Under the pieces are notes generated by a model. It was given only the letters and a program-made list of their open reading frames with translations, made no database searches and was not told the origin of the DNA. From Antedon mediterranea (taxonomy: Eukaryota; Echinodermata; Crinoidea; Comatulida; Antedonidae), in assembly GCF_964355755.1 (NCBI RefSeq), contig NC_092678.1, forward strand, positions 22,300,365 through 22,364,364: a stretch of DNA of 64,000 bases. The letters run 5' to 3'. Positions 5,015 to 61,169 of this stretch are shown here, piece by piece. Each line of letters opens with the position of its first letter. Within the stretch, counting starts at the first letter, position 1. Position numbers and translations under genes: made by a program.

Positions 5015-6054
5015 GTAGGCCTAACTTTACCTCATTTAACTTTTGTTTTGAAAATACAATTATACTTTTTCTTTTGGAAATGTATTGTCTAAATGTTGCA
5101 CTATAAAATTTCTTGATTTGTATTGAATAAAACGTATTTAATGTTGTGTTTGCAGCAGCCTTTTCCACACAGCAGACAGCACTCCTCTGTCTGTCTGCTG
5201 CACAGTCACCACACACCGGCGGTGGGCTCACTGATATGATGAGGAGGAGTAGGAGAGGAAGGGCTGCATCTAGTAGGCCCTAGTACCATACTAAGTAGGC
5301 TAGCTACCTACCTGTGCTCATGATATAGGCATAGAGTAGGAGCCCTAATCATCTTCTAATATGGATTATTGCATATAAACATGAATAAAAAATCCTTTAG
5401 GCTAGGGCCTAGGCTGTATTTTAAAATATTTAAATTTAAAAAAAAATGATTATATTCTTTTCTACTATAATAGCCTAGCTAGATTGATATTATTTCTTTG
5501 TTGAAATCTAATCAAAAGAAAATACAATGCATTTTCATTTCACACATTTCAATTGTCCGGTTTCACTATATAGGCCTAGGTAGGTCACAAAAGGGTGTAT
5601 TCTGTCACCACACCTTGTTGATTAATACGTTCAAAAGCTTATTTTTATATATAAATTTAACATTTTAACAAATAATTGTACAACATAAATTGTTAACCCC
5701 TTGACCGATTGTGTCGAATATAAAAATTAAAATGAAGTAAAAAACAAATATTTTTTTGATTCAGTATATTATAATACTATTACTAGATCAATAGATATTA
5801 GTATGAATTGAATATATAACTATACAGTAACTATGTGCTTTGAAAAGGAAAAAATAAATATATATGGAATATGAATATTTATTATTGTATTCTAGGGCAT
5901 GTTTGTGGTCAAAATTGTAAAATGTAGTTATTTAATCAATTTTTATTTGGTGGGTATGTGGTTTTGCATTTTTTATTAAACATTTAAACTTTTTACAGGC
6001 AATGTTCAAAACACAAGATTTTACTGTATTCTTCATGATCACATGATATCAACA

Positions 6055-9000
6055 ATGAAGGTTATTCGCTTAAAAAACCGTGAGTATAATGAGGGCGCTG
6101 CACTGTGGTGAATACCACAGACGTTTATTTTATCTGATAAATGTTATATTTTTTCAGATAAGTAGGATTAAAAAGTATTTTAATACAATTTCTGTATTAA
6201 AAAAATTTTAAAAAATGTTTCAAATTAAAACTCAATCATAGAGTATACCTATTCAAACTGGTTCTAGAGAAATGGATGTGGTGTGGTGTTTTTTTTTCAC
6301 AGGAACGCAAAATATAATCCTGGTGGTCATCTTTCTATGCTCTGTGTATTATTTCTACAAACACATCTTTGATGAGTCAACAGACAACAAGCTGTCTTTA
6401 GGTGAACTTTCCAAAAATAATTTACCAATAGGTAAGTAGATTAGAACACATTCACTCTATTCAGAGGACACACCCTTTTCAATGGACACACCCTTGAGGG
6501 GACAATTTCTCATTAAATGAATGAGGGGTGTATATATGTTTTAACAATAAGGCCAACATCTATTCAGAGGACACCCTATTAAATGGAAACTTTGTCAGAT
6601 CCCAAACGTGTCTCCCTCACTGTAAGTGCTTGAGCTACCATACGAACATGTATGTATCATAGTCCCTAAATTTCTTATTTTCATATGCAACTAAATTAAC
6701 CTAATTTTATCTATTTTAAATAAACTTTATTGTTATTTACTTTTTATCATTTATTTTTTTAATTTATTTCGTTCCTTATTTAATTTTTATCTTTTTTTTT
6801 TTCTTTTTATAAAAGAAGAAAAAATAGAATATGAAGATGAAGCAAAATGTGGAAATGCAAAGCCTTGTGTCAAAGGTCAATATGCGGTCAGCATTACAAG
6901 TGGATCTGGGAAGAGCAGTGCCTCACCGATGTGTTTTAATGGTGTTCTGTAAGTAACAGTAATGTCAATAACTATACTGTATATAGTTGACTCTCTAAAA
7001 TATCTCTCAAAATTCTTTTTGCATTTTAAAATTAGACATATTAGGCCTGTCCCAGGCTGTCTGGCATTGGGAGAGTTAACCGTACCAGAGTTTCTGACAA
7101 AAATAAGCATTTTAGGGCATACCAAGTGTGTCTAGTATTGGAGAGTATAATGTACCTTTTCTACCTGCAACATTACATCATACTTTCAATTTAATTTATT
7201 TCATTATTTAAAGTTCAAATGATCATTTACAAAATCAATAAATACTTTTTTTTTGTCAGAGCATCACATGACATTAGCAGAGGAATGAATGTTTTGGTAA
7301 TTGATGGTAAGTGGAATAATATGTATAAAGGCATGCTTTAGAGAGATGAGTAATTAGGTTACCCAACATAATGTTCTTCCGCCAAGTAGATCCTTCACAG
7401 CCATATTTTAATACAGCATCCATTCTAAAATCCCCAAAGAAATTAATATTTGAAATTGGGATATGAAGAACATTGATTTTTTTACTTTAAAGCTCTATCT
7501 ACACTATCAAACTAGTTTGACAAAGAAAGTGTGATGTGCCCAAATATGGTAGTGATTTGACATCATCATGTTCATGTATGGGCACATCACATTTTTTTGT
7601 CACTTAAAGTTTTAGAGTGTAGACAAGGCTTTAAAGATTGGTAGTGTCCTTTATATTGATTTCTTTGCATATTACAGAATTGAACGGAAATATAATTTCT
7701 GAGGATGTTTTTGATTTGTGGGGCCAAGGTAAGTTATTTATTAATTATAATTTAACTAGGACTCTCACTTGTATGACACATGTATGTTGAACAAAAAATA
7801 ATCTTAAGTTAAACATCACAGTCAGAAATTTTGCAATGAGACTAAACATCTTTTATTCTATATTCTATACTTTGTCTTGGGCAGACAGTAATCATTTTAT
7901 CCAGTTCCTTGATGGTCTGGCCACTGGTCAAGTGATTGTTGTGGCAACAGTCGATGAAGCGTCAAAACAATTATCTGAGCATGCTCGCGAAATATTGCGT
8001 GACGGGTTTGGTAGTAGACATATTGAACTATTGAACTACAGAGGAACATGGGCATTTATTGGACAGAAAAATGTGGAACATGAGGGGTACTATGAAAAGG
8101 TTAGTAAGCAAAATGCTATTATAATATTGTTCACTGATAGATGATAGTAGTAGAAATTTGATATTTTTGGAATCACTTGATGGGATTATAAACGCTCACA
8201 TTTTAAATTAAAGGGCCTACTGAGACAAGTTTATTTCTAGGTTTTTCCTCATTTTATGCTCTGTATTATTTGTATAGCATTTGATGAAATAAGTGTTTGT
8301 TGTGGTGGTAAATTCATACTTTTTATAGTAACTTAGGGAACATGATTTTGTGTTATTTTCATTACAGATAAACCCACGTAAAGATAAACAATATTGGGCC
8401 GAACCTTCCGTTATCAGAGGATGCATCAAATTGCCACGTAAGTAAATATAGACATAGCAGAACTTATACGACTAGATTCCTCCATAACTTCCTGCCATTG
8501 TGCAAGTTAGTTTATTATAGAAATGAATATATATTTTCAACTACGTTATTAAGTCAGACTTTTTAAAAGGTATATCTCATTTTAAATGTAGTATCGGAAG
8601 CCACGGAATTGGAAGAACAAGAAGAAGGAGAAATAATTGTGGTTAAAAAAGAACCAGAGGAAGAGATTAACATGTGTGGAAGGTTGAAATGCGGGTCTGG
8701 AACTATAGCAGTGCATGTACGCTCAAGCTATGTTAAAGGAAAAACGAAAATCTTTCCCATGATATGTGTGGATGGACAACCGTAAGATATATTTTATATT
8801 TAATGTATATGATTGTAATCTAGATTACCCATTTATAGAGTACACAGTGGAGCTTTAGGGATGCCACTGAGAGACAATCCCACCTCATGGTACAATAGTT
8901 TTGTAGCCACATGAGATTGAGATTACCTAAATCAATTGTTTCTTTATAGATTGATATACAAGGACGGTGGCACAGGAACAGCTGGCCGTGGTCTTAACGT

Positions 9001-12000
9001 AGTAGTGTTTGACCCTAAGGAGAAGAAGCCTGTTAAGACTGTGTATTATGATACATATGACTCTGGTATGATATGTCTTATCAGCTTATAAAGCTCTGTC
9101 TACACTATCAAACTAATTTTACAAAAAAAGTGTGATGTGCCCAAATATGGTAGTGATATGACATCATCATGTCCATATATGGGCACATCACATTTTTTTC
9201 ACATAAAGTTCTATAGTGTAAAATCACCTCCGTTTTCATAATTTTTCTTCCCTTTCTATCCTAGTTATGTAAATATCTTTTGTTTACCCTGAAACCTATT
9301 TTGGGATGCCTGACAATAATCACACGTTCCTTTTATTCTATTTTTAGACACGGATGATCGTATAGCGGCGTCATTGTTTCACAGTATTAAAAAGGATCAC
9401 TTTGTAATTGTAACGACTCATGATGAAGTTACACGCAAGTATGTTTTATCATCACACTGTTGTTTTTATTTCATCGGAATGCAATAATACTGTTATATAC
9501 AAAAGTTAATTTGTGTTGTCTTCAACAGTTTTGTGCTACTTTTTACAATTAAATTTAAAGAGATTGTAAAGCTCTGTCTACACTATCAAACTTTTGTGAC
9601 ATAAAAGTTTGATGTGTGCATATATGGACATGATTATGTCATATCACTACCATATTTAGGCACATCAACTAGTTTGATAGTGTAGACACCCATTATTCTA
9701 TGTTCTTTGTTGTCTTGTAATACTATTTTATGGAAGAATGATACTATTACTGGGGACATTATAACAAATCTGATAACATTATTATTTTAGGCTAGGTTTT
9801 GAAACAATGGGAGAGCTCAGAAATCTTGGTAGCCAGCATATAAACAGCCTAGGCTTTCGTTCATCGTGGGCGTTCATTGGACAGGGCAAAATAAATGGTA
9901 ACTCACCCTATGAGCTTGTTGGGGAGGTAGATGACGATGGCTGGGGAACTAAAGTGGAAATAGAGGAATGTGTTCCAAAAGTCAGTAAGTAGATTTTTAA
10001 TTATAACAATTCTTGATGAACTTTGAACCTTTTGCAATTCTGAAGAAAATTTAGGCTGTTTATTGTTATCGTAGGTCACTTAATAACACCCTGTCTGTTT
10101 AAGGTAAAAAACTATATTATAGTACTGTATGTTAGGCATGCGGCATGTGTTTGTAAGTATCAACATAATTCCAAAAACCATGCACCTTTAGTGCCTTTTG
10201 TCGCATACATTTGATAGTGTAGACAGAGCTTAAGTCTGATTTTATTTTGAGAATGCATTTAAATACCGTAATACGAGAAGAATTTTGTTAATGATTTACT
10301 AACTGTTACTGTTTTGTAGACGAAAATTATTTATTTATATTTTTTTTTTATTCTAGTCAAGAAAGAGGCAAGTGATACAAATACTGACACTAGCCAAACA
10401 AGCAAGAAAAAAATAAGTTTTTGCAAAAAATATGATAGCTATGGAGAATTCTGTAATGGTAAGAGCATTGTTGCAACTTAATATAATACTGGAATACTGG
10501 AGTAGATTTGATTACTTTTTATGCTGTTATTAGATTAAATTTGTAATGAATATTTAATATTCCAGAAAAATTGGATGTTCCATTGTTACCTGTTGCCCTT
10601 GACGACGCATCATTAAAGTCTAATCCAGCGTACAGCACTCCAATCATCATAGTATCAGGTGTGTATTTTATATAATTAGTTTTACAGTAATTTTAGAAGT
10701 TTTGTGCACTAAGGGCTTAGAATCCACTAAATCGATTGTAATTACATAGTTGACACAAAGACTTGTATATCTATTGAGGTAGGTATACTGATAATTACAC
10801 GATGAATAATAGACAGTAAATATAAAATATGTATCAAAATAAAGTTATTAATTTAAATAGGAGAAATTAAAAGTCTGATATATAAATTAAAAGTTGAATA
10901 TGAATAGACGCTACACATGTATGCAGATCTTTTGGTGAATAAGAAATTTCTTGTTTTAATTAGGTCCTGATCTGCCTGAGCTACAGAAGACAATGGATTC
11001 TGTTCTTCAGATTCCTGGCTTAAATAATAAAATGGTTGTTGTAAGTATACTATATAAACCTGTGACCGATTTAAAGAAAATAAATTATTTTTTGTCGTTT
11101 TTCATAAATATTTATTGTGCAACAGGTTGTTGTAGAAGAAACTTTTGAAGAATCTACGTTGCTAGTTCAGCTTTATAATTTCCGGCTTGAACATGTTAAA
11201 ACTGCAACAACTTTTGCAGGTAATTTTTATATCTACAAACATAATATAATGTAATAACATGTGATTTCTTCTTCATAATATGTGACTTCTTCTTCATAAC
11301 ATGTGATTTCTTTTTCATAACATGTGATTTCTTCTCCATAACATGTGATCTCATTTTCCATTAAAGGAATGATGCATAAGACAATGCGTCTTACAATGTC
11401 ACTGAATTACTTCAAAGACAAGAATAACTTCATCATGATAGAGGATCGTATCAATGTCAGTCCTGATCTGCTGCGATATTACTCTCAGACGCTTCATCTG
11501 CTTCAAGAAGACTCGTCTATATTCACTGTATCTGCATGGAATGAATTTGGTATGTTTTTGTAGTATTCTTTAGAATTCAACTCTAAAAATCAGACAATAT
11601 TCAGTCAGAATTTAATTAGCCTAAAATTCGGTTTTTACCAAATATAGAAATTAACAATGCATTTGAAATAGTAGAACAGAATTTGGAATGTTTTGCGCCT
11701 GAGAAGTTAATTCCGTTTTTGTTACAAATAACTGATGAAAACAATGCTGTGTGTTGGATTTCAAACATATTTTCTTTGAATTTTTTTTCAGGTATTTCTA
11801 GCACATCCAGCGATCCTAGTCTTTTATACAGAACAGAACTATTCATAGGATATGTGTAAGTACCATTCTTTCATTGTAGTTTCAATCTATTGTGTACAGC
11901 TTTATGGCATAAATAAATTGATAACAGTGCATTGTAGTATATGATAAATTATTTAATTTATTTATTCTAGATGGGTATTGCAAAGATCTATCTGGGATAA

Positions 12001-13664
12001 AGAGATACGAGACAAAGAGGGACCGTGTTGCAATCGGCCTACTTGGCAAGGCTGGTTTCTGGATAACCTTATGAAGGGGCGTGAGGTGGTTGCACCTGAT
12101 GTTTCACGAGCTTCGAAGAGGTTGCAAGATGGTTACTATGTTGACAAGAAAGCTATTGAAGAATATCATCATGACAGACTTGAATCTACGTAAGTGACTG
12201 GTTTCTATTTTATTCATAATTTTAAATTAATACACAAAAGTTTATCCTTGTGATTTAATTGGTTGATTACGTATCATCATGTACCATGCATTATTTGGAT
12301 TCATTGTCACAGATTAGTACTTGCATTCCACATTAAAATGTTTGTAAACACTTTTTATGCAAGGCTTTAATGAACTCCATTATCTGTATGTTATTGTATA
12401 CCTCAATGTACTCTATTTCAGAGATTGTGAAAACGAACCAAAATTTGCATTGAAAATGGTGAAAGCAGCCTATGAAGACGAATTGAAAGACTTAATTACA
12501 ATGAGCTTGCCAGTTGATGAAGATGATTTAGAAGGGTGTATGGAAAGTGGAGCAATTATCTTAGAAAAGGATGACGAGTCAAAGTAAGTTATTGGTGCTG
12601 GTTGCAATGGATGGTACAGGTCCCTGGTTGCAATGGTACAGTTCGCTGGTTGCAATGGTACAGGTCCCTGTAGTGCCTGGTTGCAATGGTACAGGTCTCC
12701 GGTTGCAATGGTACAAGTCCTTGGGGTGCTGGTTACAATGGTTCAGGTCCCTGGGGTACTAGTTGCAGTGGTTCAGGTTGCTGGTTGCAACGGTACAGGT
12801 CCCTGGATGCTGGTCCCAATGATACATGTTGCTGGTTGCAGTAGGTCAGGTCCCTGGGTGCGGGTTGCAACGGTACAGGTCCCTGGGGTGCTGGTTCCAA
12901 TGATACATGTCGCTGGTTGCAGTAGTTCAGGTCCCTGGGGTGCTGGTTGCAACGGTAAAGGTCCCTGGGGTGCTGGTTCCAATGATACATGTCGCTGGTT
13001 GCAGTAGTTCAGGTCCCTGGGGTGCTGGTTGCAACGGTAAAGGTCCCTGGGGTGCTGGTTGCAATAGTACAGTTCGCTGGTTGCAATCGTACAGTTCACT
13101 GGCTTACTGGTTGCAATGGCACGGGTTGCTGGTTGCAATGGTACGGGTTGCTGGTTGTGATGGTAGAATTTACTCTGTGGTGCTAGTTGCGTTTGCTGGT
13201 GCAGGTTTTTGTGGGTAGTACGTGTTAGTAGAAGTTGTAGTGGTGTTGATGAAGGGTTTTGTAGTGTGTTTTGGTGGTGCTACTTGTTTTACTGATACTG
13301 ATTCCGATGGTTTTGACAAATTCTTCATATTTCTTTTTTCAGAAATGTATATTCAGTATTCTATGAATATGATTCTAAAGATAGGACTCTACTTCAGTTA
13401 TGCAAGTGTTTCAATCTGTATGTTCATAAGGGTACCACAGTCAGGAATATTCATAACGGACTAATACGGTATGTCAACATTTCATCAACTTACCAACTGT
13501 AATATTATATCTAAAGGTGTCTAACAGAAGGTGTATGTTCTAATGTGCTTTTGTTTCATTTTAGCTTTACAATGGACATGGATATATACTTTTTAATTGG
13601 TTCCAAGACTGAATATTATGAACTCAAACCAGATAATGTTGTTGCAGTTAAAGTAAGATCATGA
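6055..13664 (+). CDS. POMGNT1-like protein with two FAM3/ILEI domains and a degenerate GT13 domain
   Basis: Coding exons: 6055-6079, 6303-6431, 6816-6948, 7260-7306, 7678-7728, 7885-8099, 8368-8437, 8592-8781, 8950-9065, 9348-9438, 9791-9984, 10357-10458, 10566-10658, 10964-11040, 11126-11219, 11367-11549, 11792-11855, 11971-12189, 12422-12583, 13343-13468, 13565-13664. They sum to 2481 nt, an intact 826-residue frame. A short cytoplasmic tail and one membrane segment (about 13-27) predict a type II Golgi/ER protein. ILEI domain 1 spans 63-219 (Cys 63, 69, 91, 219), domain 2 spans 252-416 (Cys 252, 257, 282, 416); each has the four-Cys FAM3 pattern and a W-A-F-I-G motif. After a linker (FCKKYDSYGEFC) comes a GT13 domain (about 478-740; SAWNEFG, GREVVAPDVSR). 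POMGNT1 adds GlcNAc to O-mannose on dystroglycan and has one ILEI-like stem domain. Here the metal Asp (Arg570), the catalytic Asp (W-Q-G-W, 650-653) and the N-R-P motif are replaced, so I infer a pseudo-enzyme or changed chemistry. Confidence 0.85.
6455..6610. repeat. Dispersed repeat G (GGACACCCCTATTAAA type)
   Basis: Two copies of ATTCAGAGGACAC with partners (CAATGGACAC, GAATGAGGGGTG, CACCCTATTAAATGGA) lie in intron 2 of the POMGNT1-like gene. The same word set recurs at about 25.9, 28.8, 37.7, 47.7, 49.4 and 53.0 kb. The family has no coding content. Confidence 0.5.
7489..7632. mobile_element. MITE-A, full-length copy
   Basis: This 144-bp foldback element has ends AAAGCTCTATCTACACTATC and the inverted GTGTAGACAAGGCTTT. 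Its interior is AAATATGGTAGTGAT, CATCATCATG and GGGCACATCACA, with one internal unit. It lies in intron 4 of the POMGNT1-like gene. Confidence 0.8.
9090..9220. mobile_element. MITE-A, right end degraded
   Basis: The left end AAAGCTCTGTCTACACTATC and the interior are intact. The right inverted repeat breaks off after TATAGTGTA. It lies in intron 9 of the POMGNT1-like gene. Confidence 0.75.
9568..9688. mobile_element. MITE-A, inverted orientation
   Basis: It has the same terminal repeats with the interior reversed (CATGATTATGTCATATCACT then ACCATATTTAGGCACATCA) and one internal unit. It lies in intron 10 of the POMGNT1-like gene. Confidence 0.75.
10188..10275. mobile_element. MITE-A right half plus shared flank
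   Basis: Only the right end (TTTGATAGTGTAGACAGAGC) remains. The next ~45 bp (TTAAGTCTGATTTTATTTTG, then ATGCATTTAAATA) also follow the copy that ends at 22554, so both copies sit in a larger repeated segment. Confidence 0.65.
11254..11358 (+). repeat. 21-bp tandem repeat that forms a splice acceptor tract
   Basis: Five units of the type ATAACATGTGATTTCTTCTT(C) run straight into the 3' splice site of exon 16 of the POMGNT1-like gene (exon starts at 11367). The pyrimidine-rich half of the last unit serves as the acceptor tract. Confidence 0.8.
12588..13175 (+). repeat. GC-rich minisatellite in intron 19 of the POMGNT1-like gene
   Basis: Irregular units of about 20-30 bp are built on GGTTGCAATGGTACAGGTCC and CTGGGGTGCT. 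It is open in several frames on both strands because of its composition, which yields long but meaningless reading frames. It sits between the splice sites at 12583 and 13343. Confidence 0.85.
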
Positions 13665-15403
13665 TAAGAAAAACCCCTAGACAAAGACTATGACATCATA
13701 TCTATAGCAGAAGGAATGAAAGAGTAAGAAGGTGCCACTGAGTCTCAAGTAACATCCAGGAACACCCAGGGATCTCGTGGAATTGGCAGGAATCTTTAGA
13801 AGCGTGCAGGAGTCTTTAGAAGCGTGCAGGAGTCTTTAGAAGCGTGCAGGAGTCTTTAGAAGCGTGCAGGAGTCTTTAGAAGCGTGCAGGAGTCTTTAAA
13901 AGTGTGCAGGAATCTTCAGGAATATGCAGGAATCTCCTGAAATATGCAAGTATTATTGGAAATATACAGGAATCTCCTCCTTTCAAAGCACAACACAAAA
14001 TAAAATGAATATTCTGCGTTATTGCGTAGAGGGCGTATCATACTGCATCATTTACCGAATATAAAAATACTACTCATACATTCCTATTCTTGTACATTCA
14101 CTGTTTTTTACGAATGTATCGGGAGTAATTTTTGTTTAAATTATTTTTGTATTTATAAAACAATATATATATGTGGTGATTGTTTAAATCTACTTGGTAG
14201 CATTAAATGTTTAAATATATTTTAAAGTGTAGTTCCTAGGCTAGATAAATTTAACGTACATTTATACACAAGAGGCTAATAGCAAATCTTTTAAAGTGGA
14301 TGTGTTTTGTCATTAGGTGAAGATTCAAAGTGAGGGGACAGGGAAAATGTACAAATACGACAGATTTTTCAGCCCAATGTGACACGGCATAGTAATGAGT
14401 TGTGCTGTAAAACAGTTTGAAACGCATTCAAGCAGTAGTTCAGTTGATTTAGTATACATTTATTGATTTCAGAGAAGTGTTTTTGAGTCTATTGCCATTG
14501 TGCCATGGATGTGTATTGGACATATTTATGAGTACTGAGAGACAAACTAGACCCAATGTATTGATACAGCTAAAGTTAAAATGTTGCACTTTTTTAAAAT
14601 ATTGGTGTTTTTTTTACACAAAAAAAAGTGTAATTACATTTTTATTTTAACTTGAATATTTATAGATTTATAGTAGAATTAGATTTATTTTAACATTCCA
14701 CTTAGGGTCTTTCAGTTAGGAGGTATATTTTAAATAACTTAACATTTATTATAAAGAGAATTCAGCCTTGAAAGAAGCCAAAAGGCTTGTCGCATTCTTT
14801 ATTGCTGTTTTACTTTTATATGATAATTTAGGTTTCTGCTTATTTTAACTCCATTTATTCATATTTTAACTAAATTAAATGTTTATGCTGTTAAATATTT
14901 TGTAAATACCTGTAATCCACCAATTATACCTTGATTTTGACATTTATTTGCAATGAAATCTTTTTTAAAGAAAACTTTATTAATCAATAATTATTTTAAA
15001 TATAAATATTATTAGAATTGTTAGTTATTATCAATTAATGGCAACTGTAATTTGATCTTACAAGTTTTCTATCTTATTTTCTATCAAAATATTTGTTTAA
15101 TAAATGAATTATAAAATGTTTGTGGTATTAATAATATCTTGGCTGATTTGTTAGATATATATATATATACTGTATATATATACTCCACTCTGTATCAATG
15201 TGTACATCTGTTTATAAATATAGCCTACATAAAAATGCACAGGAGCGGCTGTGTCCCATTTATATGCAACTCCTTTTAGAAAGGCGAAATCCCAAAATGT
15301 TGGTAAATAATTATACTATATATTTACCGTAATACATTTTATACATTTAATGTCCGCCTGTTTAATGTTGATCTGCACAGGCTGTGTTCATCACCCGCAC
15401 AAG
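13665..15403 (+). other. Probable 3' UTR of the POMGNT1-like gene and intergenic space
   Basis: Candidate poly(A) signals AATAAA lie at 13999-14004 and 15099-15104, so the 3' UTR is either about 0.35 or 1.45 kb. Apart from the 20-bp minisatellite and a short (TA)n run near 15156-15182 I see nothing further. Confidence 0.45.
13787..13970 (+). repeat. 20-bp minisatellite in the 3' UTR
   Basis: At least five near-perfect units of AGGAGTCTTTAGAAGCGTGC are followed by decayed units (CAGGAATCT...ATATG). It begins about 120 nt after the stop codon of the POMGNT1-like gene and would be transcribed in its mRNA. Confidence 0.85.
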
Positions 15404-17256: not shown

Positions 17257-18552
17257 TCATACTTGAACCTCTTGTTGGTATACATCAATCAACTCTAATA
17301 TCATTTTCTGGATCGAGTTTTCACTAATGTCTTCACAGAAAACCTGCAGTAAAAAATAACAATTTAAAATTTGGACTGTAATTACAGCAGCGGATCCAAG
17401 AATTTCAAATGACAGAGGAAGGAGAGCGTATGGTATAAAATTAGAAGCATCTAGTTGCCAATAAATTTTACTTTCCCCACTATCAATCCGCACGCCTGAC
17501 CCTTAACTGCCACACCCCCCATCCTAACCTGATAGACCCCTGACCCTTAACTGCCACACCCCTGACCTTACCTGCCACCACTGTTTTTCAGCTTGTAAAT
17601 TACAAGGCACTTCCACCCCATAACACTGAAGAGCAAAGTACACAGCTGCCACTGCCAGGTGTTGAGGCTTCACACGCAAACACAAATCAGTGTGAAAACT
17701 ATCACATAAAATAGACATTGAAGTCTTTGCAATCGGAGTGGTGAGCCACACGTCTGTGTCCATCCAATCACGCAATGACTTTAAGTAGTGCAACATGTAC
17801 TTATGTGGCAACTCGGAATTTAGTTTAAACTGAAGGACTCGGACAAGTAAGAGTTCGCAGTTGACGATGCTGTCACGCAGTTCCCAATACTCTGGTCCGA
17901 TTTCTAGTTTTGGTGAGTTCTTGTGCAACATCCTGAAATGTATAAAAACAATGTAAATTTACCACAAAATAAAATATATATTATTAAATATTTAATGCTG
18001 TCCCGGATCCTGGATCTGCCCATAATATACAAATAATGAATGTTTATGAGTGTAATAGTACAAATAATGGCATGAGGTGAAATAACCTTTTATACCAAAA
18101 TAAAAAAAGTACTATTGACCGACCATTCAAAAAGTGCTATTGAATGACCGTTCGATAGTGCGTTCTATTGCACACCATGTGACTCACAATCGTCCAATCA
18201 AATGACAGGAATTTATTTAGGTGTTATATATTCACGGATATTATATAACACACCTGTGACAAACATTAATAATATCTCTCATTCTAACCGGCTGTTCTTC
18301 AACTTTCGTAGCTAAGTATATACATGTGGCTGCGATTAGGTGAGGATCGTAGTTGCTTAATTTCCGTTGACGGAAGAAACGGTGATAGAAGATGCATGCA
18401 GATGCAGTTGTAACAGACTCTAGGCTCAGTTTAACGGAAGCCTCCATCAGAAAGTGGACTACTTTAAAATGTATTTTTGATGAGCTGGGCTTTTGAATGT
18501 TCGCACCCGAAGAAGCTGTGAGCCGCTGGATTTCTTTTTTGAACACTTCCAT
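17257..18552 (-). CDS. CCNQ: Cyclin Q (FAM58A), activator of CDK10
   Basis: Three exons on the minus strand (18552-18254, 17932-17572, 17343-17257) sum to 747 nt and give 248 residues, the same length as human cyclin Q. Cyclin Q binds and activates CDK10; loss of the human gene causes STAR syndrome. Family matches are HFLMEASVKLSLESV, the cyclin box (YDPHLIAATCIYLATKVEEQ, RDIINV), YWELRDSIVNCELLLVRVL, HKYMLHYL and YGVEVP with EKQWWQV. Exon junctions are in phase with good GT-AG sites. The start is the ATG at 18552, preceded by a likely 5' UTR acceptor and a six-codon upstream frame whose TAA overlaps this ATG. It is convergent with RPP14 and divergent from POC1. Confidence 0.92.
18125..18238. 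repeat. Dispersed repeat H, copy 1
   Basis: About 110 bp match the segment at 30172-30280: CAAAAAGTGCTATTGAA, an imperfect palindrome, CTATTGCACACCATGTGACT and ACAATCGTCCAATCAAATGA. It lies in intron 1 of CCNQ. Family unknown. Confidence 0.75.
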
Positions 18553-18574
18553 TACAATGATTTCTGTTTCATGG
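18534..18574 (-). promoter_or_regulatory. CCNQ upstream mini-ORF with overlapping stop and start
   Basis: Directly before the CCNQ start, the minus strand reads ATG, five sense codons, then TAATG, so the mini-ORF stop shares its last base with the CCNQ ATG. A TTTTCAG acceptor precedes it, so this segment would be the start of the second transcribed exon. The arrangement could couple termination to reinitiation. Confidence 0.45.
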
Positions 18575-19354
18575 ACTGAAAATAAAAATAATTAGTAAAA
18601 ATAATTGTCATTTGTTTGTTTTTTTGTTTATAAAACGATGTGTTTGAAAGAAACGCGTTTAAAAAACATTTATAATCAACAGACCGATTTAAAATATTGT
18701 ATACAGTAGAGAGAAAAGGTATCAGGACGAAACGACTCTGATTGTCTCGATCATCATTAAAAAGTCGGTCGCGACCTCTAAAAATACACAAAATAAAAAA
18801 TGCGTAGGCCTAGCCTAAATCAAACTCATTATTAATAATTGCTTGCACATGTTATTTATTACACTTGACAGACATACCAACCCACCGACATTCCTTTACA
18901 CAAATTTACACAATAAATAACTTAGTTTGGTGTTTTAGAAGCTTAGCTAGGCCCTAGGCCTATCACTCTTTTGGGTACCCAGTTTTCACGCAATGTTTTA
19001 CCCAGAGAGGAGAGGACGGTGTGCCTGGTGTTTTTTTAAGATTGCCCGAACTATATCTAGCCTAGCCTAGGAGGGAAATAACAGTTTACCAATAATTAGA
19101 TAAAGTTGTGGTATATAATACACAATCAATAATTATAAAATAATATTTTAGAGTATCGAACATAATGCGTTTGGGATCAAGTGCAATATAAATAATATAA
19201 AGCTGAGCGAAAACAGCATAAAGTTAAATTAAGATGATTTCCTGGAAATTATTACGCATGCGTAACCGCCAAGTTTGAAAATCCAAACAACGTTTTTGGA
19301 AGTTGTTTTATTTCTTGATGTATTTGCTAATATTATAAGAATAAAATTACAAAA
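18553..19354. promoter_or_regulatory. Shared intergenic promoter region of CCNQ and POC1
   Basis: The two start codons are 802 bp apart and diverge. The interval contains TAGGCCTA-type palindromes, a possible acceptor for a CCNQ 5' UTR exon (18574) and AT-rich sequence. I find no clear TATA box or CpG-island-like core. Confidence 0.4.
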
Positions 19355-22300
19355 ATGGCTAGTGTTTTAGTAAGTAATGTTTAGAGAATTCAGTGTAGCA
19401 AACAGGCACACTGTCATGCTTTTGTTTAGCATGAATTTATGGAGTTTATTAGGCTAGGCCGGACTAGCAGAGACAGCAGCAGCAGACAGAGAGAGAGAAA
19501 GACTAGAGACTAGATAGATTAGAGAGGCCTGCCTGTCTGTAGTACCGTGCGTAGCGTAGTAATTGTAGGAGGGCCTAGCTAGGCTAGATAGAGAGAGAGA
19601 GAGTTGTTACTAGACTGCCCCGAATTCATTCATCCCACCATGCATTGTCATTTGTGTCATTGCATATTGAGATAAACCTAAATAAAAAAATGCAATTATT
19701 TTTAGATTTAATTTAAAGAAAGGTAAAGTAGGCCTAGCCTACTAGCTAGCTAGGCCTAGTTTACTTGTGCATTATGATTAGCTTTCAAATGTTTTATGAA
19801 AAAAATCCTTAATTAAATATATATTTTTTAGGAGGATCCAACGATGGAAAGACATTTTAAAGGTCATCGTGACACCATAACAAGCGTGGACTTTAATCCA
19901 AATATGAAACAATTAGGTAAGTAATAAAGTAAGGTATTAATATACTTTGCAGTTTTATGCCATATTCTGCCAAATCCTTGACTAAAATATCCTCAACAAA
20001 TCCCCTAGCTGCTGCCATGTTTTAATAATGCCAGAATAAGTAAATAAAAATAAACGCATAACCCATCCATACCAATTCTTACTAGCCAGCTAAATACTGT
20101 ACCAACACAGTTTTGAACAATTTTATTTACATTTCCATAGCTTCTGGTTCAATGGATTCATGTCTTATGGTCTGGAACTTTAAACAACAAATGAGAGCTT
20201 ACAGATTTGTTGGTCACAAGGTATTTATAAATTTTAACAAATTATTTGTATTATATATTTGTATTAATCCAAAGGCAAAATACTTTTTAAAAAAAGACGA
20301 TGCCGTGGGTATCAGTGGCTGGATCTCAATAAAGATACAAAAAAAAAAGCGAAAAGCTAAACCAAATCGATAAAGTAAAACAGCCAGAAAAGTTAGCAGA
20401 GCTTTCAGGCAATATTTGTCTTTTTATACACCTCCTGTGTGTTAATATGGGCTATGAAGTCTTGTTCTCACAAATGATTTAATTGAACTAATGAACAGTG
20501 TGTGCAAAATCATGAGTACCCCCTCTATTTTTGCCTTTTACTTTATAAATAGAAAGAGAGTTTGTATTTTTGTTCATTTTACACATGTTTAAACTATTGC
20601 AAGCATCCATAGACTAGTCATGGGGTATCAAAATTACTGGAATTGTACTAACACATTTTTAAGGTACATTTAAAGACTACCTTGGGGTGGGTAACTTGTA
20701 CAAGTGCTACCAGTTTATTACAATTTTAAATCTACTCTTTATAACTTAATATTGTCTATTGAAGAAGAAAAAACCTCGACAATATGTCCTGCCATTATGC
20801 ATTTTGGTTTACCTCTATGTGACTTGTCATTAAAACGTTTTCTTTTAGAACTCCACAGTAGGCAAATCCTATTTTATGCCTATAGTATACTGTGGTCCTT
20901 CACACTACACTGAATGTTGTACAGTATAATAATGTAATAATTATTAAACCTTCACATGCTAAATCTAGAATTGAAAGGTCTATCGGAAACTAGCGCCATA
21001 AGCATGGAACCAATGTTAGTATTATATAGCTGCATAATGGCGCCAACGCCTAGGACAGTTTATTCATTTAGGTCCTGTATCCTCTTAAAAAGTTCAATGT
21101 CGTCTTTCCAACACTAAAATCCATGATTCATGTTTACAAACTTACTGCTAATTTATACTCTTCTCATTACGGTTCGACTCCGTAATTAACACGCTTCGCG
21201 ATGTAGATCATGGTCGTAGGCTGACTGGTGCCGGCCCGATACACTTGTCACATCCCGGAAAAGATATTTAAAAAGGATGCAAAATTGAAATCATATTCAG
21301 ACTCTATTTCGAGACATTTTTATCGCCATCCTTGGTTATTGATTATCTCTCTTTCATTGATAAGGTTGCATAAATTAAATTTCTAACTCGAAAGTAAAAA
21401 TGAATGGACAGGGATACTTTAGCTACTGGAATAGAGTAAACCTTGTGTTGGCCCTCCATCCCATTGTGTCTCTAGTGTGAACCAACCTTTAGGCAGTTTT
21501 ACCTCCTGTTTAGCGACGTAATTCTAACTTTTAAGCTTTAAGATTTTTGTTTGCATTTTATATCCATTTTTTTAAATGTGTTATGAATAGATTAGGTATA
21601 TGAATACATTATTTATAGATTGTAAACATTCAATTTCTATTTTGGTTGGAATCAATGTAGTACACAGCATGTAATTAAAGTACTTTCAAGATAAATTTTT
21701 AAATTGAGAAAATCAAATGTCAAAGATCAAGCATACAATTTCTATTTTTAAATTTATAATTTTAAACAGTTTTTGATTATGAACATCCTATCCTAAAAAT
21801 TAATGTCATAAAATAATTCTATTTTCATATTCAATTTAATTTTAAAGTTTAGTTGTCCATTTATAGACTGTTGAAGTGAAAGCATTTTCCGTTCAATTTT
21901 AGATTTTAAACATCCTACCCTAAAAAGAATGTCTTAAATTACAAGTAATTATAATTAATTAATTTTTAATTAACGAAGAATGCCATTAATTATAAAAGTG
22001 GCAGAAAGTTTCACTTTTCATAAAAATGTCTAATTTGGGCAATATTTTAATTTGAAGTCAAGAATGACTTTAATTAATGATTAATTCAAACCACTACTTT
22101 CTTTGATAAAAATACTTTATCAACGCAGCGTAGAATGATTTTAATTTGTTAAAATGTATGCTGGAAGTGATCTATTTTGATTCGTTTCCGTTCGCGATCT
22201 CAAAATATAGCGGTTACCTACCTCGTAGGAACTCGGTACTGCTGAGTACTGAACTCGAATTACTCAGACGTTTCCGTAAAATGATTTGTACAAAAAACGC

Positions 22301-25300
22301 GTAATAAATTAATCACTTCCACGTTGTTTAATTAGATTGGAGACTGTTAGTAGCTCCTGTAGACAAGTTCTGTATCCTTGCTTATAGCTGTGTTAAGCTA
22401 TGTCTACACTACTATATCAAACTAGTTTGACAAAAAACGTGTGATGTGTCCAAATATGATAGTTATATGCCCAAATATGGTAGTGATGACATCACCGTGT
22501 CCATATATGAGCACATCATATTTCACATAAAGTTTGATAGTGTAGACAGAGCTTAAGTCTGATTTTATTTTGAAAATGCATTTAAATACATTAGTACTTC
22601 GAACTTTATGACAAAAAGCAATTATAATATTATACAGTATATTATTATATAAAAGCATATACAGTAGTATGACTCTATGAGCACATCACATTTTTTTGTC
22701 GCATAAAGTTTGATAGTGTAGACAGAGCTTTACTCTTGCTAGTGGGAAAACAACCAAATATAAATCCACTCTTTCAATTTGGAAATGATATGTATTTTTA
22801 GTATGCGTGTTGTGTAGGATGATTGTTTTGACAGGTTGTTGGATTTTGGATAGAATTTAGACTCACTGATTTTGTATGACAGTGCTTTGGCATTCAAAGT
22901 GCTAATGTGTCATTGTCTAATACTGTACTTGGCTACTGGGCTTGTGTACAGCTACAAGGCTATCATTAATCAAGACAATTGTTGAAAGTAGTGTTTCTGT
23001 ATACTGCAAACAGCTTTATGTCCCATCTCCAAAGGACGAGGCTATTATAATAATTTAAAATTCTTGCTTATTTAACTGTAAGGATTCTTCTTTCTTAATT
23101 CTTTATTTCTATTCATCAAGTACACAATCATAAACATACAGTACATTAAATAAACATCATACATACAATACAAAGAGAAAAAAAAAAGAATGGAAGTGGG
23201 GAATCTCAGAAGCATACTATGGCTTTACAAGTAGAAACTCCTGCTACAAAAATCTCTGTCTCACAATTCCTGGTCATTTATACTGACCACTGGCTGGTTA
23301 CACAGTATGTATTGCACCTTTGTCCTGTATTCATGTTGTTTGTGATATATCATGATTGACCGGTAAACAAGTTTTGTTCTTAGGGTCATCCACACCAATC
23401 AATCAATCAATCATTTATTTTCTTCAAATTAAAACAGTACACTAAATGGTGTAAAGAAAGGTAATTAAATTGAAGAAGGCATGTTCAAAAAAAGCTTGTG
23501 ACAGACATGCCTAAACAAAGATGAGATTTAAACTACACAGAAAAAGAAAGAAAAAAAAAGAAATAACAAAATATAAATTTACATAACATGGGTTTAACTA
23601 AATATGAAAATAACTAAAAAAATAATTTTGGTATAAATTAAGAACTGTTCGTCTTCTTGTTACTCATCATTATAATTATTATCATAAAATTTAATATATT
23701 GAAAATTAATACTTGGGAATCTTTATTATGAATTTGAAATGGTGGTGAATAATTAGTAGTATTCTTCTGTTGATAAATTGTAGAGATGTTGGTTTTCACA
23801 TTTGACCACATTAAAACAATTTTTATGTAGCAAAAAGGTAAACTTTACTACAATCGCTTTTTAATGTAACTAAGACATATATAATTTCATTTGATTCCAT
23901 GTACAATACTTTTAAATTATATATATTTGTTTTAATTGTAATGTACATTATTTTTATATTTAAATGTTATTTTATGTTTTATTTTAAAATTTTTAGGATG
24001 CTGTTCTATCAGTGAACTTTTCTCCGTCTGGTCATCTGGTTGCTTCAGCTTCCAGGGATAAAACTGTTAGATTATGGATTCCCAGTGTGTAAGTACTTTT
24101 CTGAGACTCTTTACTCGACCGCACTTTTGTGAAATGCTGTTTTTATCAAACAACTACGCGGTTACTGTCACTTCGTGGCATCCCACAACTTGTAAACTAT
24201 CATAGTAAAAGTTAGTTGTACAAAATACACTATTGTTCGACAACCACATTGACGTAGTCGCTTTAAAAGCAGCTCACAATGTCATGTGACATGGTTCAAT
24301 GTTTGAGTGAATGTTCACATCAACTTGCAGTGGAATTTTAGATTAACAATGACACACGAATGATCCAATTTATAAGATCAATGATCCTTTCTAATCCTAC
24401 TTAAACATTATTAATTCTTTTAATCCCATCTTGGGATTTTTAAAATAACATTTACTGTAAACATTTCTTTTTTAGATTTAAAGCATTAGATGTTGTATCA
24501 TTCACCCATAGAAAAGAAATGTTTTGTTTTTATTTGCATTTACTAATAAATAAGTAAATACTATCAAAACAGTGGTATGTTTGTTGGCTGATTTTACGAA
24601 AAAATTGTTACCAAAGAAAAAGAAAAAAATCTAAAAGAGAAAAAATAAAAATTACACTATCAAACTAGTTTGGCAAAAAAGTGTGATGTGCCCAAATGGT
24701 AGTGATATGCCAAAATTTGGTAGTGATATATCATCATCATGTCCTTACAGTATATGGGCACATCAAATTTTTTGCCACATAAAGTTTGATAGTGTAGACA
24801 GAGCTTTAAATAAAAGTATGGCACAAAATATTAAAAACAGGACTTCAATACTATGATTTGTTTTTTTAGTAAGGGTGAATCAACTGTGTTCAAGGCCCAC
24901 ACCGCGACCGTACGTAGTGTCGAGTTCTCAAATTGCGGCCAGTACTTGGTCAGTGCTTCCGATGACAAGACTGTTAAGGTTTGTGTAATAAGTGTTGGTT
25001 AACATGTAATTGGTCAATTTATAATTAACCTGTCCCCTTTCTCTGATTTGAACACATCCGCAATGTGACATCCCCCTAGTTTTGATTTGTCACTTTTGGT
25101 TCCTTCCTTATTCTCAAGGTTAGGCTATGTGATTCAGCGTTGATTAATCATTGGTAATATTCCACTTTCTTTTTCATAAACCCACCCAATGTGTAGAGGT
25201 AACAGGATTTATAAGAACACTTTTGAAATTGTCAAAAATTGTCAAGAAGAGCAAGGTTTCTTAAGCTCTGTTTACACTATCAAACTTTATTCCCATATGT

Positions 25301-28300
25301 AAACATGATGATGTCATATCACTACCATATTTAGGCACATCACATTTTCACATTGTCGAACTAGTTTGATAGTGTGAACAGAGCTTTAGATCTAAGGGAA
25401 GACGAAAGTTGTTCAGAATCTAGAAAAGAGTTAAGATTGAAAAAAACAGTCCGAGCAAACGGTGGCCTGAAAAAAAGATAATCCTTATTTTTCTGCCATT
25501 GTTAAATTCTCTTAGAAATATAATTATTGAAAATATAATTTATGAGCTCTGGAATGTCATATTTTTAGCTATATCAAATATTTTGACATCTCACAGTGAG
25601 TTGGCTGACTATTGGGCCAGATTTCGTTTAATTCTTGTTCCTGTGGAAACGGAACAAGCTTTTAATTATTAGCTTAATTAATAATTACTCATCATATTAA
25701 ATTAATTAGTTGAATTATCGAGTCATGTAAATGGGTACTTCTTTATATTTTGATCGATTGATTGCTTTATTGATTAATTTGCTGTTACATTACCATACAC
25801 ATACTGTAGAGCAATTACATTGCCTTCAATCACATCAGCTTTCCTTTTCAATTCATGTATACATACACTATACATCTACAGTATTGTGTTAAATGAACAA
25901 GTTGCTGTATGTTTGAATATTGGGGACACATCTATCATATGAAAAGGTCCCAAAGATGTCCCCTTTATAAATAGAGGTTTATTTATTATTTAATTTTTCT
26001 GATCCATTATAATTTTGGTTATTATTATAATATATCTTGCATGTCCTTAATTTTTTTGGGGGAAAACAAACTAAAAAAAACTTTTTTTTACAAAAATTGT
26101 AACTTTTAGATATGGACAGTTCACAGACAGAAGTTTCAGTTTTCGTTAAGCCAACATATGAATTGGGTTCGCTGCGCAAAGTGGTCTCCTGACGGCCGAT
26201 TGATCGTTTCAGGAAGTGATGATAAAACCGTCAAAATTTGGGATAAGGCCTCTAAGGAGTGTATCCACACTTTCTTTGAACATGGAGGGTAAGCATTGAT
26301 TGATATTATTTTATTTTCACATCATCCAACAGCAAGAACACAACTGACCAATTACAGAATGGGAAACCCAATTACTTTCTAAACCAAATCTCATATGGTG
26401 TTAATATGTTGGCACTGTATTGGCTGTCAGAAAAATCCTGGAACTATGGCATGATTTGAACAAAGGAACCTGGATTTTGTAAGCTAGCACCAAGCCACAG
26501 TGCCACTGAATACTGTATTTGCGAATATCCATGCCATTTTATATGTACTCATCCTAGTCAATTATTACTACATTCATCGTATACTAGAATCCAGTTGTAT
26601 GACCTGCGACAGAAATACTATTTTCATGATGATGTTATACCACTACCATATTCGAGCATATCACTACCATATTCGGGCAAATAACTACCATATTCGGGCA
26701 TATTACTACCATATTCGGGAATATTACTACCATATTTGGGCAAATCACTACCATATTCAGGCATATTACTACCATATTTGGGCATATCACTACCATATTC
26801 GGGCAAATCACTACCATATTCGGGCATATCACTACCATATTCGGGCATATCACTACCATATTCGGGTATATCACTACCATATTCGGGCATATCACTACAT
26901 ATTCGGGCATATCACTACCATATTCGGGCATATTACTACCATATTTGGGCACAACACTTTTTTGTCAAACTAGTTACTCTTCTATATTTTATTGTTAGTT
27001 GTACAGTAATTTAGATTAGCTAAATTAAGCAACAAATCATTCTGCCATGTCTGTCAGTTTTCATGTTGGTCACAGGTCGTTTTTTTTTTTACTTTTTCTG
27101 CGAAAATTACGTCAAAGCCTGAATGGATTAGTCTTTATTACCTCATTAAATTAACACCTGCGGAAAAAAAAGTTTACAAGTGGGCCTAAATAAATAGACA
27201 GAATGCTGATTGTTACTGACCGTATGTTATATAATTAACGAATTACAAAGATTATAAATCTTTAACCTGTAGCTTATTCTCATAAATAACATTATGTCAC
27301 CAGAAAAAATAATATTGTTTTATTGTATAATAAATATAATTAGTGTTTAAAAGATGATTATATAACCTTTTTATAACAAGTTAATGACTTAAGAAAAGGT
27401 TAAATTTAGTGTATCGAATATTTTAAAACACTTTTAAAAATGGAAAAATTATTATATACATAATCATGAATACATTATCAAAAATGTTTACATTTGTTTA
27501 GGTTTGTGAACTGTGTAGCTTTTCATCCTAGTGGTACATGTATAGCGGCCGGAGGCACTGATAACACGGTTAAAGTTTGGGATATCCGTATGAACAAGTT
27601 ACTGCAACATTATCAAGGTAAGGCAACATGTCAAAATGATTTTACTGCAGTAACTATTGTAATAATGTATGATTTTTGTTTGTTTTAATGTAAAATAAAT
27701 TACAAAAAAAGCCTGATTTTGTACTCGTAAACATTAAACAAACAGTAAACTGCACAACAATGTATTGCAATGCAAAATATATAAATATGAATTTAATTGT
27801 TTTGTAAGAGCAGACTTAAATATTGAAAAACACTCATTTTGTGTGTCATCTTGCTAATCTTTGTATCTGTTTATCTTTCCAATTTTATCATGTGTACAAA
27901 TCATCATTACCATTGACGTATTTAATTCTTGGTTTTAGAGATTATCGTTTATTTATAAAATGGTGTTATTATTTTTCTGTTTTTTAATACGCATGACCTA
28001 ATTTAATGACACATGTATTATGTGTGATCACAATTTAAACTCTTAAAAGTCATGTTGAATGAATGCTATGTTAGTTTTTAGTTTGACCTTTTTTATTTTC
28101 TACCATCTCTTTCAATGGTTGTAAAATTAAATCTCTCAATTTTATTTTCAGTTCACAGTGGCGCTATAAATAGTGTATCATTTCATCCCACTGGTAACTA
28201 TCTTCTCTCTGCTTCAAATGACTCCACGCTCAAAGTATTGGATCTGTTGGAAGGCCGTCTGTTCTATACTTTACATGGACACCAGGTAAGAGTAGTATAG

Positions 28301-54837: not shown

Positions 54838-56107
54838 TAAAAATATAATATATTATTGAATTAGATAAATGGTAAAATAATGTTAGTAGATAATATGGTG
54901 GGCGGTAAATATTTATATATTATATATTAAGTGTAGTCTTTCTATGTCTCCATGCAGCAGTTAAGTATTGTTTACAGTGATAGTCTACAATTTCACCGAT
55001 TCTCTCAAATGGAAATTCTAAATAAAGGTCATCAAGTAAAATATGATGTTGGTATTCGATTGTACCACTTCTAAAATTCTCCCAGAATGTATCATAACCA
55101 CAATACAATAAATCCATTTTTAGTAAGTTAAAATGTGTTTCTCTTACATTTTTAAGGTTTGAACATTCAAGTAGAAAATGGTCTGTAGTTTCAATTAACT
55201 GATTGTTGCATAGCTTGCAAAAACCAGTCTCATTTTCTGACCATGTATTTTTTCTACCTTCTAAATCAAGAGAGTTAGACCTCGCTTTAAACTTTAAACT
55301 AATGGAATCAAAATTCACCATATCAAACATGTATGTCTCTGCTTTAGGTTCATGTTTATATTTCAAATATTCGGAGAGGGTTGACTTTGTTTTTGCACCT
55401 TCTAACCATTCCTTGATATTTTCTAGAGAGTTGGCATGTGTAAAACTCTTGAACCATTGACTTTCCGGATTTAAATTAAACTTATTTCCTAAATCAAATT
55501 TACATAATAAATCTTTGATATGGTTAATCCACTTCCATTTCACCTTATCTTCTACATCCATTATAGATCTACATAGTAGTTTTTGCCACCTTTGGTCATC
55601 CATATTTTTAATTCTGTTAAAATAGGACATCCTAGATTTATTTTGGATGGTGTAGAGTGTCTCCCATCCTAGGTCACCAATCAATGCCGCTTTCGCGACG
55701 TTTCTTGGTGCCTTCAAAATAATTCTAGCCATTTGGTATTGTAAATTTTCTAACTTATTTAGTGAACCTTTAGAGTTACATAACCATATTGCAGAGGCGT
55801 AATTAATTGTTGGTAATCCTATCGTTCTCCATAAAAGATCACCATAGTATACCCTATTGAAATCATTCTGATTGTTTATAATAGAGGTAATATAGGCTAT
55901 TATCCTATTTCCCTTTTTGATTACTTCATTGATATTGTCAGAATCTGTATATGAACGTGATATTATTACACCAAGATATTTATACCTTTCTATTTCTGTG
56001 ATATAATGATTACCAAGGCTCCATGTTCTATGTGGATTTACTCTTTGCCCTGTGACCAGCACATTTGATTTGTCAAAATTAAACTCTAATTTAACGGATA
56101 TAATATC
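54306..56107 (-). mobile_element. 5'-truncated LINE (non-LTR retrotransposon)
   Basis: On the minus strand a reverse-transcriptase C-terminal region is followed by an AT-rich 3' segment. It ends in GATTCAATAAATTTATCTTA then (TTATC)n at about 54306, a microsatellite tail typical of CR1/L2-like elements. A (TA)n run and a 28-base A run (54806-54833, T on the coding strand) lie inside the 3' segment. The 5' end stops near 56107. The tail motif and a similar look in five other stubs suggest the clade, but I cannot name it. Confidence 0.7.
54920..56104 (-). pseudogene. LINE reverse-transcriptase C-terminal fragment
   Basis: About 394 codons are open without a start codon. The frame begins just after an in-frame TAA at the 5' truncation point and ends at a TAA at 54920. 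Visible are the post-palm motif FNFDKSNVLVTG, the YKYLGVIISR motif that follows the catalytic domain in non-LTR reverse transcriptases, the thumb-like region, and a C-terminal Cys/His motif (FCKLCNN, then TTDHFLLEC). The catalytic Y-x-D-D region and the endonuclease are absent, so it cannot move by itself. The open frame suggests a fairly young insertion. It has no role for neighbouring genes that I can see. Confidence 0.8.
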
Positions 56108-58060: not shown

Positions 58061-58132
58061 GGCTCGGTGGCCAAGTGGTAAGGCGTCTGTCTCGTAAACA
58101 GAAGATCATGGGTTCAAACCCCATTCGGGCCT
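58061..58132 (+). tRNA. tRNA-Thr (anticodon CGT)
   Basis: The 72-nt cloverleaf is complete. Acceptor GGCTCGG pairs with TCGGGCC (two G-T wobbles), D stem GCC with GGC, anticodon stem TCTGT with ACAGA around loop CTCGTAA (anticodon at 58093-58095), and T stem ATGGG with CCCAT around TTCAAAC. The discriminator base is T. There is no intron. A T-rich run (58134-58139) follows and fits RNA polymerase III termination. It is a single gene with no tRNA neighbours in the window. Confidence 0.95.
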
Positions 58133-60915: not shown

Positions 60916-61169
60916 ACTGGTAGATTTCATGGCTGTTTGTACCAATAAAAGGAAGTTATTTTGAGTTTTTCACTCAAAGTACTTAAATTACAGCATTTAG
61001 GATTTATGCTCTTAGCTTGTGTTAGCATTGCACGGACATACATATGATTTCTGCAAGCTGAGTGTGTTTTTGTCGAACTTTTTATATTTCAGTTTTTTGC
61101 GAATTTTGTTTGGAATTTTACCGGGAATCTATTCAAGTTGAACTCATATTTTTTTACAACACTTGTAAG

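Follow-up and report, generated by a model that had tools for sequence, protein, structure and literature searches.

An intact crinoid gene of FAMP-1 type predicted to join two FAM3 domains to an inactive GT13 glycosyltransferase domain

Introduction

What does a glycosyltransferase domain do in a gene that has kept its reading frame and lost the residues needed for transfer? This question is raised by a gene of the crinoid Antedon mediterranea, located on the forward strand of a 64,000 nucleotide (nt) stretch of DNA (the window; NCBI RefSeq assembly GCF_964355755.1, contig NC_092678.1, positions 22,300,365 to 22,364,364, GC content ~32%). An initial annotation had filed the gene as an intact relative of the glycosyltransferase family 13 (GT13) enzymes POMGNT1 and GnT-I that lacks their catalytic and metal-binding residues, and had proposed that it is either a pseudo-glycosyltransferase or an enzyme with a metal-free mechanism. 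We consider it rather likely that the gene encodes a secretory-pathway protein of FAMP-1 type with a type II membrane anchor, in which two FAM3/ILEI carbohydrate-binding modules are predicted to be joined to a catalytically dead GT13 domain. As an intact gene with a putatively dead GT13 domain it can serve as a test case, and what it adds to the known FAMP-1 type is a glycosyltransferase (GT) domain that here appears to be without transfer machinery, a separation from POMGNT1, and a linkage to FAM3 neighbours.

Gene Model and Domain Architecture

Independent splice-site reconstruction gave 21 exons at 6055-13664 on the forward strand, with every intron being GT-AG and a coding sequence of 2481 nt that encodes 826 amino acids and contains no internal stops. 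This reproduces the intact 21-exon frame reported in the initial annotation, where the span singled out for comment (10357-13664) corresponds to exons 12-21. An additional in-frame ATG is found at 6043, 12 nt upstream of the 6055 start. Exons 1-2 (6055-6079 and 6303-6431; together 6055-6431) encode a short basic N-terminus and, as read by eye from MKVIRLKNRTQNIILVVIFLCSVYYFYKHIF, a single transmembrane anchor at approximately residues 12-27, which would give the protein a type II topology.

Two ILEI/FAM3 domains follow the anchor. The first (residues 60-220; 6816-8437) is encoded by exons 3-7 at 6816-6948, 7260-7306, 7678-7728, 7885-8099 and 8368-8437, and the second (residues ~250-420; 8592-9984) by exons 8-11 at 8592-8781, 8950-9065, 9348-9438 and 9791-9984. 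The Pfam ILEI model matches in two stretches upstream of GNT-I, with 150 bits summed. Both domains carry the four FAM3 cysteines (Cys 63, 69, 91 and 219 in domain 1; Cys 252, 257, 282 and 416 in domain 2), the C-terminal W...C and an Arg-Asp-Arg (R-D-R) triad (R103/D152/R181 and R300/D351/R379, respectively), and for both the score against FAM3C exceeds that against the POMGNT1 stem (82 vs. 52 bits for domain 1 and 62 vs. 39 bits for domain 2). In the POMGNT1 stem, the triad corresponds to R129, D179 and R207, which contact N-acetylglucosamine (GlcNAc) (PMC9802357). The vertebrate FAM3A-D proteins (ILEI/PANDER; PDB 5lc2, 7ecq and 2yop) have the same four-cysteine ILEI domain with an R-D-R triad, but they are single-domain, secreted, and without a GT13 part.

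The remaining exons, 12-21 (10357-10458, 10566-10658, 10964-11040, 11126-11219, 11367-11549, 11792-11855, 11971-12189, 12422-12583, 13343-13468 and 13565-13664), encode a linker and a GT13-like domain, the putative pseudoenzyme, at residues ~440-826. Pfam GNT-I matches residues 562-673 with 71.5 bits (cut-off 25.4), and among PDB entries human POMGNT1 (5ggf, E 2.9e-54) ranks first, covering residues 278-820, followed by FAM3C, FAM3A and FAM3B over the first domain. Homology to the GT13 domain of POMGNT1 and GnT-I is confirmed for this part of the protein. The N-terminal half is FAM3-type, its two ILEI domains and anchor having been overlooked in the initial annotation, and the protein as a whole has the architecture of FAMP-1 (PMC9802357).

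By this architecture the window gene is of FAMP-1 type, a type already known. In C. elegans FAMP-1 (M70.4), a C-terminus resembling POMGNT1 comes after two FAM3-like domains in tandem, and an amphioxus gene has the same domain structure (PMC9802357); the window protein resembles both in having two such domains in tandem and a POMGNT1-like C-terminal domain. The authors of that study reported minimal similarity for the GT domain of FAMP-1, described the orthology relationships of FAMP-1, POMGNT1 and FAM3 as obscure, and called the transferase activity of FAMP-1 unknown (PMC9802357). Further likenesses to FAMP-1 are a FAM3 domain with GlcNAc-binding residues and a genome in which no stand-alone FAM3 was found. 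The two also differ: both FAM3 domains of the window protein keep the R-D-R triad, whereas Fam3L1 of FAMP-1 is without two of the three residues, and the window protein has a membrane anchor and comes from a genome that also has a canonical POMGNT1. Losses in the GT domain were followed residue by residue here, and FAMP-1 was compared through its published description.

Catalytic Residues of the GT13 Domain

Residues were mapped with HMMER and with a five-sequence MAFFT alignment of the window protein, POMGNT1 and MGAT1 from the same genome, human POMGNT1, and mammalian GnT-I from the PDB, and the two methods concur. In GnT-I, D213 of E211-D212-D213 is the sole metal ligand, D291 is the base, and residues 318-330 form the lid loop (PMC7014118). 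The metal Asp D213 aligns with R570 (codon CGT, 11447-11449), and the general base D291 of the W-D-x-W segment with Q651 (codon CAA, 12047-12049), the segment here being W650-Q651-G652-W653. The register at R570 is fixed, as the alignment is ungapped to the upstream strand and to the downstream conserved Asp576; a gap of one residue is present immediately past W650-Q651-G652-W653. At the equivalent of D144, the Asp of FIDG in POMGNT1 and SQDC in GnT-I, the window protein has E515, and NRP has become PDL; the G-loop reads IGYV in place of PGLG, and the lid loop RL in place of FG. The same replacements had been named in the initial annotation for the metal site, W-D-x-W and NRP, along with a loss of HFG, and the alignments agree with all of them. 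Two family-invariant cysteines, the disulfide pair C239-C305 of GnT-I, are replaced by T596 and V664.

With the metal ligand, the base, one nucleotide-site Asp, and the G-loop and lid-loop residues all replaced in an intact gene, the transfer machinery appears to be missing, and this supports the pseudo-glycosyltransferase reading over the other one first proposed. A literature search for inactive GT13 proteins found none described. Half of the invariant positions are kept: of the 67 residues identical across the four canonical enzymes, 33 are retained, including SAWN, LLYR and R-x4-P-x2-SR. The sole potential lumenal N-glycosylation site, N572-V-S, is two residues from R570, and its position would also fit a pocket no longer in use, though only suggestively.

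Two other explanations for the lost residues were rejected. A missing or alternative exon does not fit, as the lost residues lie within exons 16 and 18 with conserved flanks in register, and the GNT-I model has no other match at the locus. Sequencing error does not fit either, as the codons of Arg570 and Gln651 are each two bases away from the Asp codons in the POMGNT1 of the same genome.

Proposed Function and Alternatives

If the protein is of the kind proposed above, its two FAM3 modules would bind glycans with GlcNAc-type ends, by analogy to the POMGNT1 stem, Fam3L2 of FAMP-1, and FAM3C. Both FAM3C and Fam3L2 retain the triad and bind GlcNAc, and Fam3L1, without two of the triad residues, is non-binding (PMC9802357). 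The dead GT13 domain would then be a structural or docking module, and it could position client glycoproteins or partner active glycosyltransferases, much like COSMC does for T-synthase. COSMC (C1GALT1C1) is a GT-A protein that has lost its DxD motif and its catalytic base (xED) and acts as the chaperone of T-synthase (PMC7185993). The likeness is in the GT-A fold and in the loss of both DxD and base; the differences are that COSMC belongs to another family (GT31), has no ILEI domains, and works as a T-synthase chaperone.

Several points weigh against this proposal. The absent transfer activity, the glycan binding, the Golgi or endoplasmic reticulum location and the scaffold role are all predictions from the sequence, and selection on the GT13 part is read only from its open frame. 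The retention of E568 (E211 of GnT-I), D569 (D212), W650 (W290) and H546 indicates a donor site that is altered and not erased, and weak nucleotide binding is possible. A small tree of ILEI domains placed neither domain with confidence and put domain 2 on a long branch, and because of this the FAM3 assignment rests on the cysteine pattern, the scores, and the synteny described below. Of the gene positions behind that synteny, only the proximity of FAM58A to DUSP9 and of Poc1a to Dusp7 was checked against papers.

It is conceivable, though unlikely, that the FAM3 domains make up the whole function as secreted or shed signalling modules, and that the GT13 tail has been left as an inert remnant, tolerated or drifting. 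Fam3L2 alone, or human FAM3C, rescues the thermotaxis of C. elegans famp-1 mutants (PMC9802357), and the vertebrate FAM3 proteins manage without a GT domain. However, C-terminal truncations of FAMP-1 are worse than missense mutations in Fam3L2, and a processed fragment was not seen (PMC9802357). The GT13 tail of the window gene also keeps its frame and its splice sites, along with half of the residues that are invariant in GT13, at ~70% sequence difference from POMGNT1. Across 12 codons of lost residues, 29 of the 36 nucleotides differ from the POMGNT1 of the same genome with the frame unbroken. Neutral evolution of the 1161 nt that encode the GT13 part of POMGNT1 was simulated in a simple model that allows substitutions but no indels. 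A level of 0.1 substitutions per site produced 5.5 stops on average and left the frame open in 0.3% of runs, and a level of 0.5 produced 18.5 stops and left it open in 0%. Because neutral simulation yields stops while the real frame is open, simple drift of the GT13 tail after the loss of its catalytic residues is improbable. The earlier argument from intact exons to selection is therefore a reasonable one at ~5.5 expected stops, although it falls short of proof.

An active, metal-free glycosyltransferase, in which the diphosphate is neutralised by Arg570 and other basic residues in the manner of Arg/Lys in GT14 enzymes, seems improbable to us. Metal-independent inverting GT-A enzymes without DxD do use Arg/Lys (PMC7948508; PMC7185993), the window protein has an Arg exactly at the position of the metal Asp, and E568, D569 and W650 are kept. 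Against this, the general base is now Gln651 with no Glu nearby, and the base in GT14 is a Glu (PMC7185993). Activity of this sort would also have to accommodate the replaced D144-equivalent, NRP, G-loop and lid-loop residues, and a sole potential lumenal N-glycosylation site two residues from Arg570. The GT14-like mechanism suggested in the initial annotation does not hold up well as a result, its sole support being the Arg that occupies the metal position.

Relation to POMGNT1 and MGAT1

The genome searched comprises 354 Mb in 11 large chromosomes (22-41 Mb) and 7 small scaffolds, and the separate canonical POMGNT1 that the initial annotation suggested looking for was found on chromosome C6. 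Its assembled exons span the stem and the GT13 domain, EEDLD, LWDWDMW, NRP and YHFG are all kept, and its GT13 part shares 67% identity with human POMGNT1. A canonical MGAT1 is located on C2. That both canonical enzymes are encoded elsewhere adds to the support for a pseudo-glycosyltransferase in the window. No stand-alone FAM3 was found, the ILEI matches in the genome being limited to the window gene and the POMGNT1 stem, though an exon-wise search such as this can miss one. No relatives of the GT13 part were found in the viral or bacterial/archaeal contigs scanned.

The window protein and POMGNT1 (GT13; PDB 5ggf/5ggi) have in common a type II anchor, an ILEI-like stem, a GT13 domain, and the SAWN, LLYR, GRE..PDVSR and FC..YG..C motifs. 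They differ in that POMGNT1 has one stem domain and the window protein two, the aligned part of the POMGNT1 stem is without the FAM3 cysteines, and the catalytic and metal residues of POMGNT1 are intact. Of the nine introns that interrupt the GT13 part, none has a counterpart of exactly the same site and phase in the POMGNT1 of the same genome, with one being within 1 nt, and the window gene is therefore not a young duplicate of POMGNT1. A lineage-specific POMGNT1 duplicate, decaying or newly adapting, is very improbable even though the GT13 part is nearest to POMGNT1 (29% identity vs. 21-23% to MGAT1), given these introns, ILEI domains of FAM3 and not POMGNT1 type, and the same architecture in nematodes and amphioxus (PMC9802357). 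By these comparisons the window gene is not the orthologue of POMGNT1, and POMGNT1 and the FAMP-1-type gene are separate genes, since one genome has both.

Neighbouring Genes and the Origin of Vertebrate FAM3

Several other genes were identified in the window. Exons at 17260-18591 on the reverse strand are cyclin Q (CCNQ/FAM58A)-like (Cyclin_N, 49.9 bits), and we read this gene as CCNQ by its likeness to the human sequence. The first exons of a POC1-like WD40 gene lie at 19357-24980 on the forward strand, read from the sequence with weak beta-propeller matches. A DUSP6/7/9-type MAP-kinase phosphatase with rhodanese and DSPc domains is encoded at 61062-63643 on the forward strand (Pfam Rhodanese 40.2 bits; DSPc 47.3 and 92.5 bits), and a HEXIM-like gene is present as a weak match. 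In human, FAM3A is on Xq28 and FAM3D on 3p.

We set the prediction in advance that other Xq28 genes would be located on C9, the chromosome of the window gene, and put four of them to the test; C9 accounts for 7.4% of the genome. All four were found on C9: filamin (best multi-exon array at C9:25.76-25.79 Mb), G6PD (multi-exon copy at C9:2.41 Mb), XAP5/FAM50 (C9:5.01 Mb) and TRAP-delta/SSR4 (C9:3.57 Mb). The chance of all four being on C9 is ~3 in 100,000, or somewhat higher given that filamin- and G6PD-type sequences are present elsewhere too. Sharing a chromosome with genes near human FAM3A gives the window gene a bearing on where the vertebrate FAM3 proteins came from, and makes their origin testable.

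Two pairs of these neighbours are documented in papers: human FAM58A (CCNQ) and DUSP9 are listed as adjacent on Xq28 (PMC4836726), and mouse Poc1a and Dusp7 lie within one bacterial artificial chromosome (PMC4619696). FAM3D is among the genes dated to the base of Olfactores (PMC11203038). Together, the neighbours, the C9 linkage, the failure to find a stand-alone FAM3 and the dating of FAM3D favour a gene of the window type as the ancestor from which the vertebrate FAM3 genes arose through loss of the dead GT13 tail. A fuller version of this scenario, to which we would give even chances, is that the vertebrate FAM3 proteins come from an anchored ancestor in which a pair of sugar-binding FAM3 modules was joined to a pseudo-glycosyltransferase tail, that the tail and one module were lost, and that their "cytokine" activities would be glycan recognition inherited from a pseudo-GT13 scaffold.

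Additional Observations

Besides the multi-exon G6PD on C9, a seemingly intronless open frame of 538 amino acids containing G6PD_C is found at C7:17060058-17060828 and may be a retrocopy or an H6PD-type gene. Dozens of filamin-repeat open frames of 500-1100 amino acids are arrayed on C3, C5, C7 and C9 (e.g., C9:23.86-23.91 Mb and 25.17-25.20 Mb), in what looks like a large expansion of TRIM/NHL type.

The window gene itself is accompanied by tandem repeat arrays, one of them G-rich and within intron 19 (12600-13170) and another, of GAGTCTTTAGAAGCGTGCAG, directly past the stop codon (13790-13960). A third array at 26600-26960 reads as repeats in several frames. A dispersed and approximately palindromic element of ~100-150 bp (GCTCTGTCTACACTATCAAACTAGTTTGACAAAA...), resembling a miniature inverted-repeat transposable element, is found in introns and between genes, with copies at 7495-7640, 9095-9215, 9567-9690, 22390-22730, 24650-24800 and 25265-25390; it is also present at the POMGNT1 locus on C6 (L013, 5095-5330). 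Toward the end of the window, a 395-codon open frame on the reverse strand (54923-56107) resembles the end of a reverse transcriptase of long interspersed nuclear element type (weak zf-RVT match), and a tRNA-Thr (CGT) gene is located at 58061-58132.

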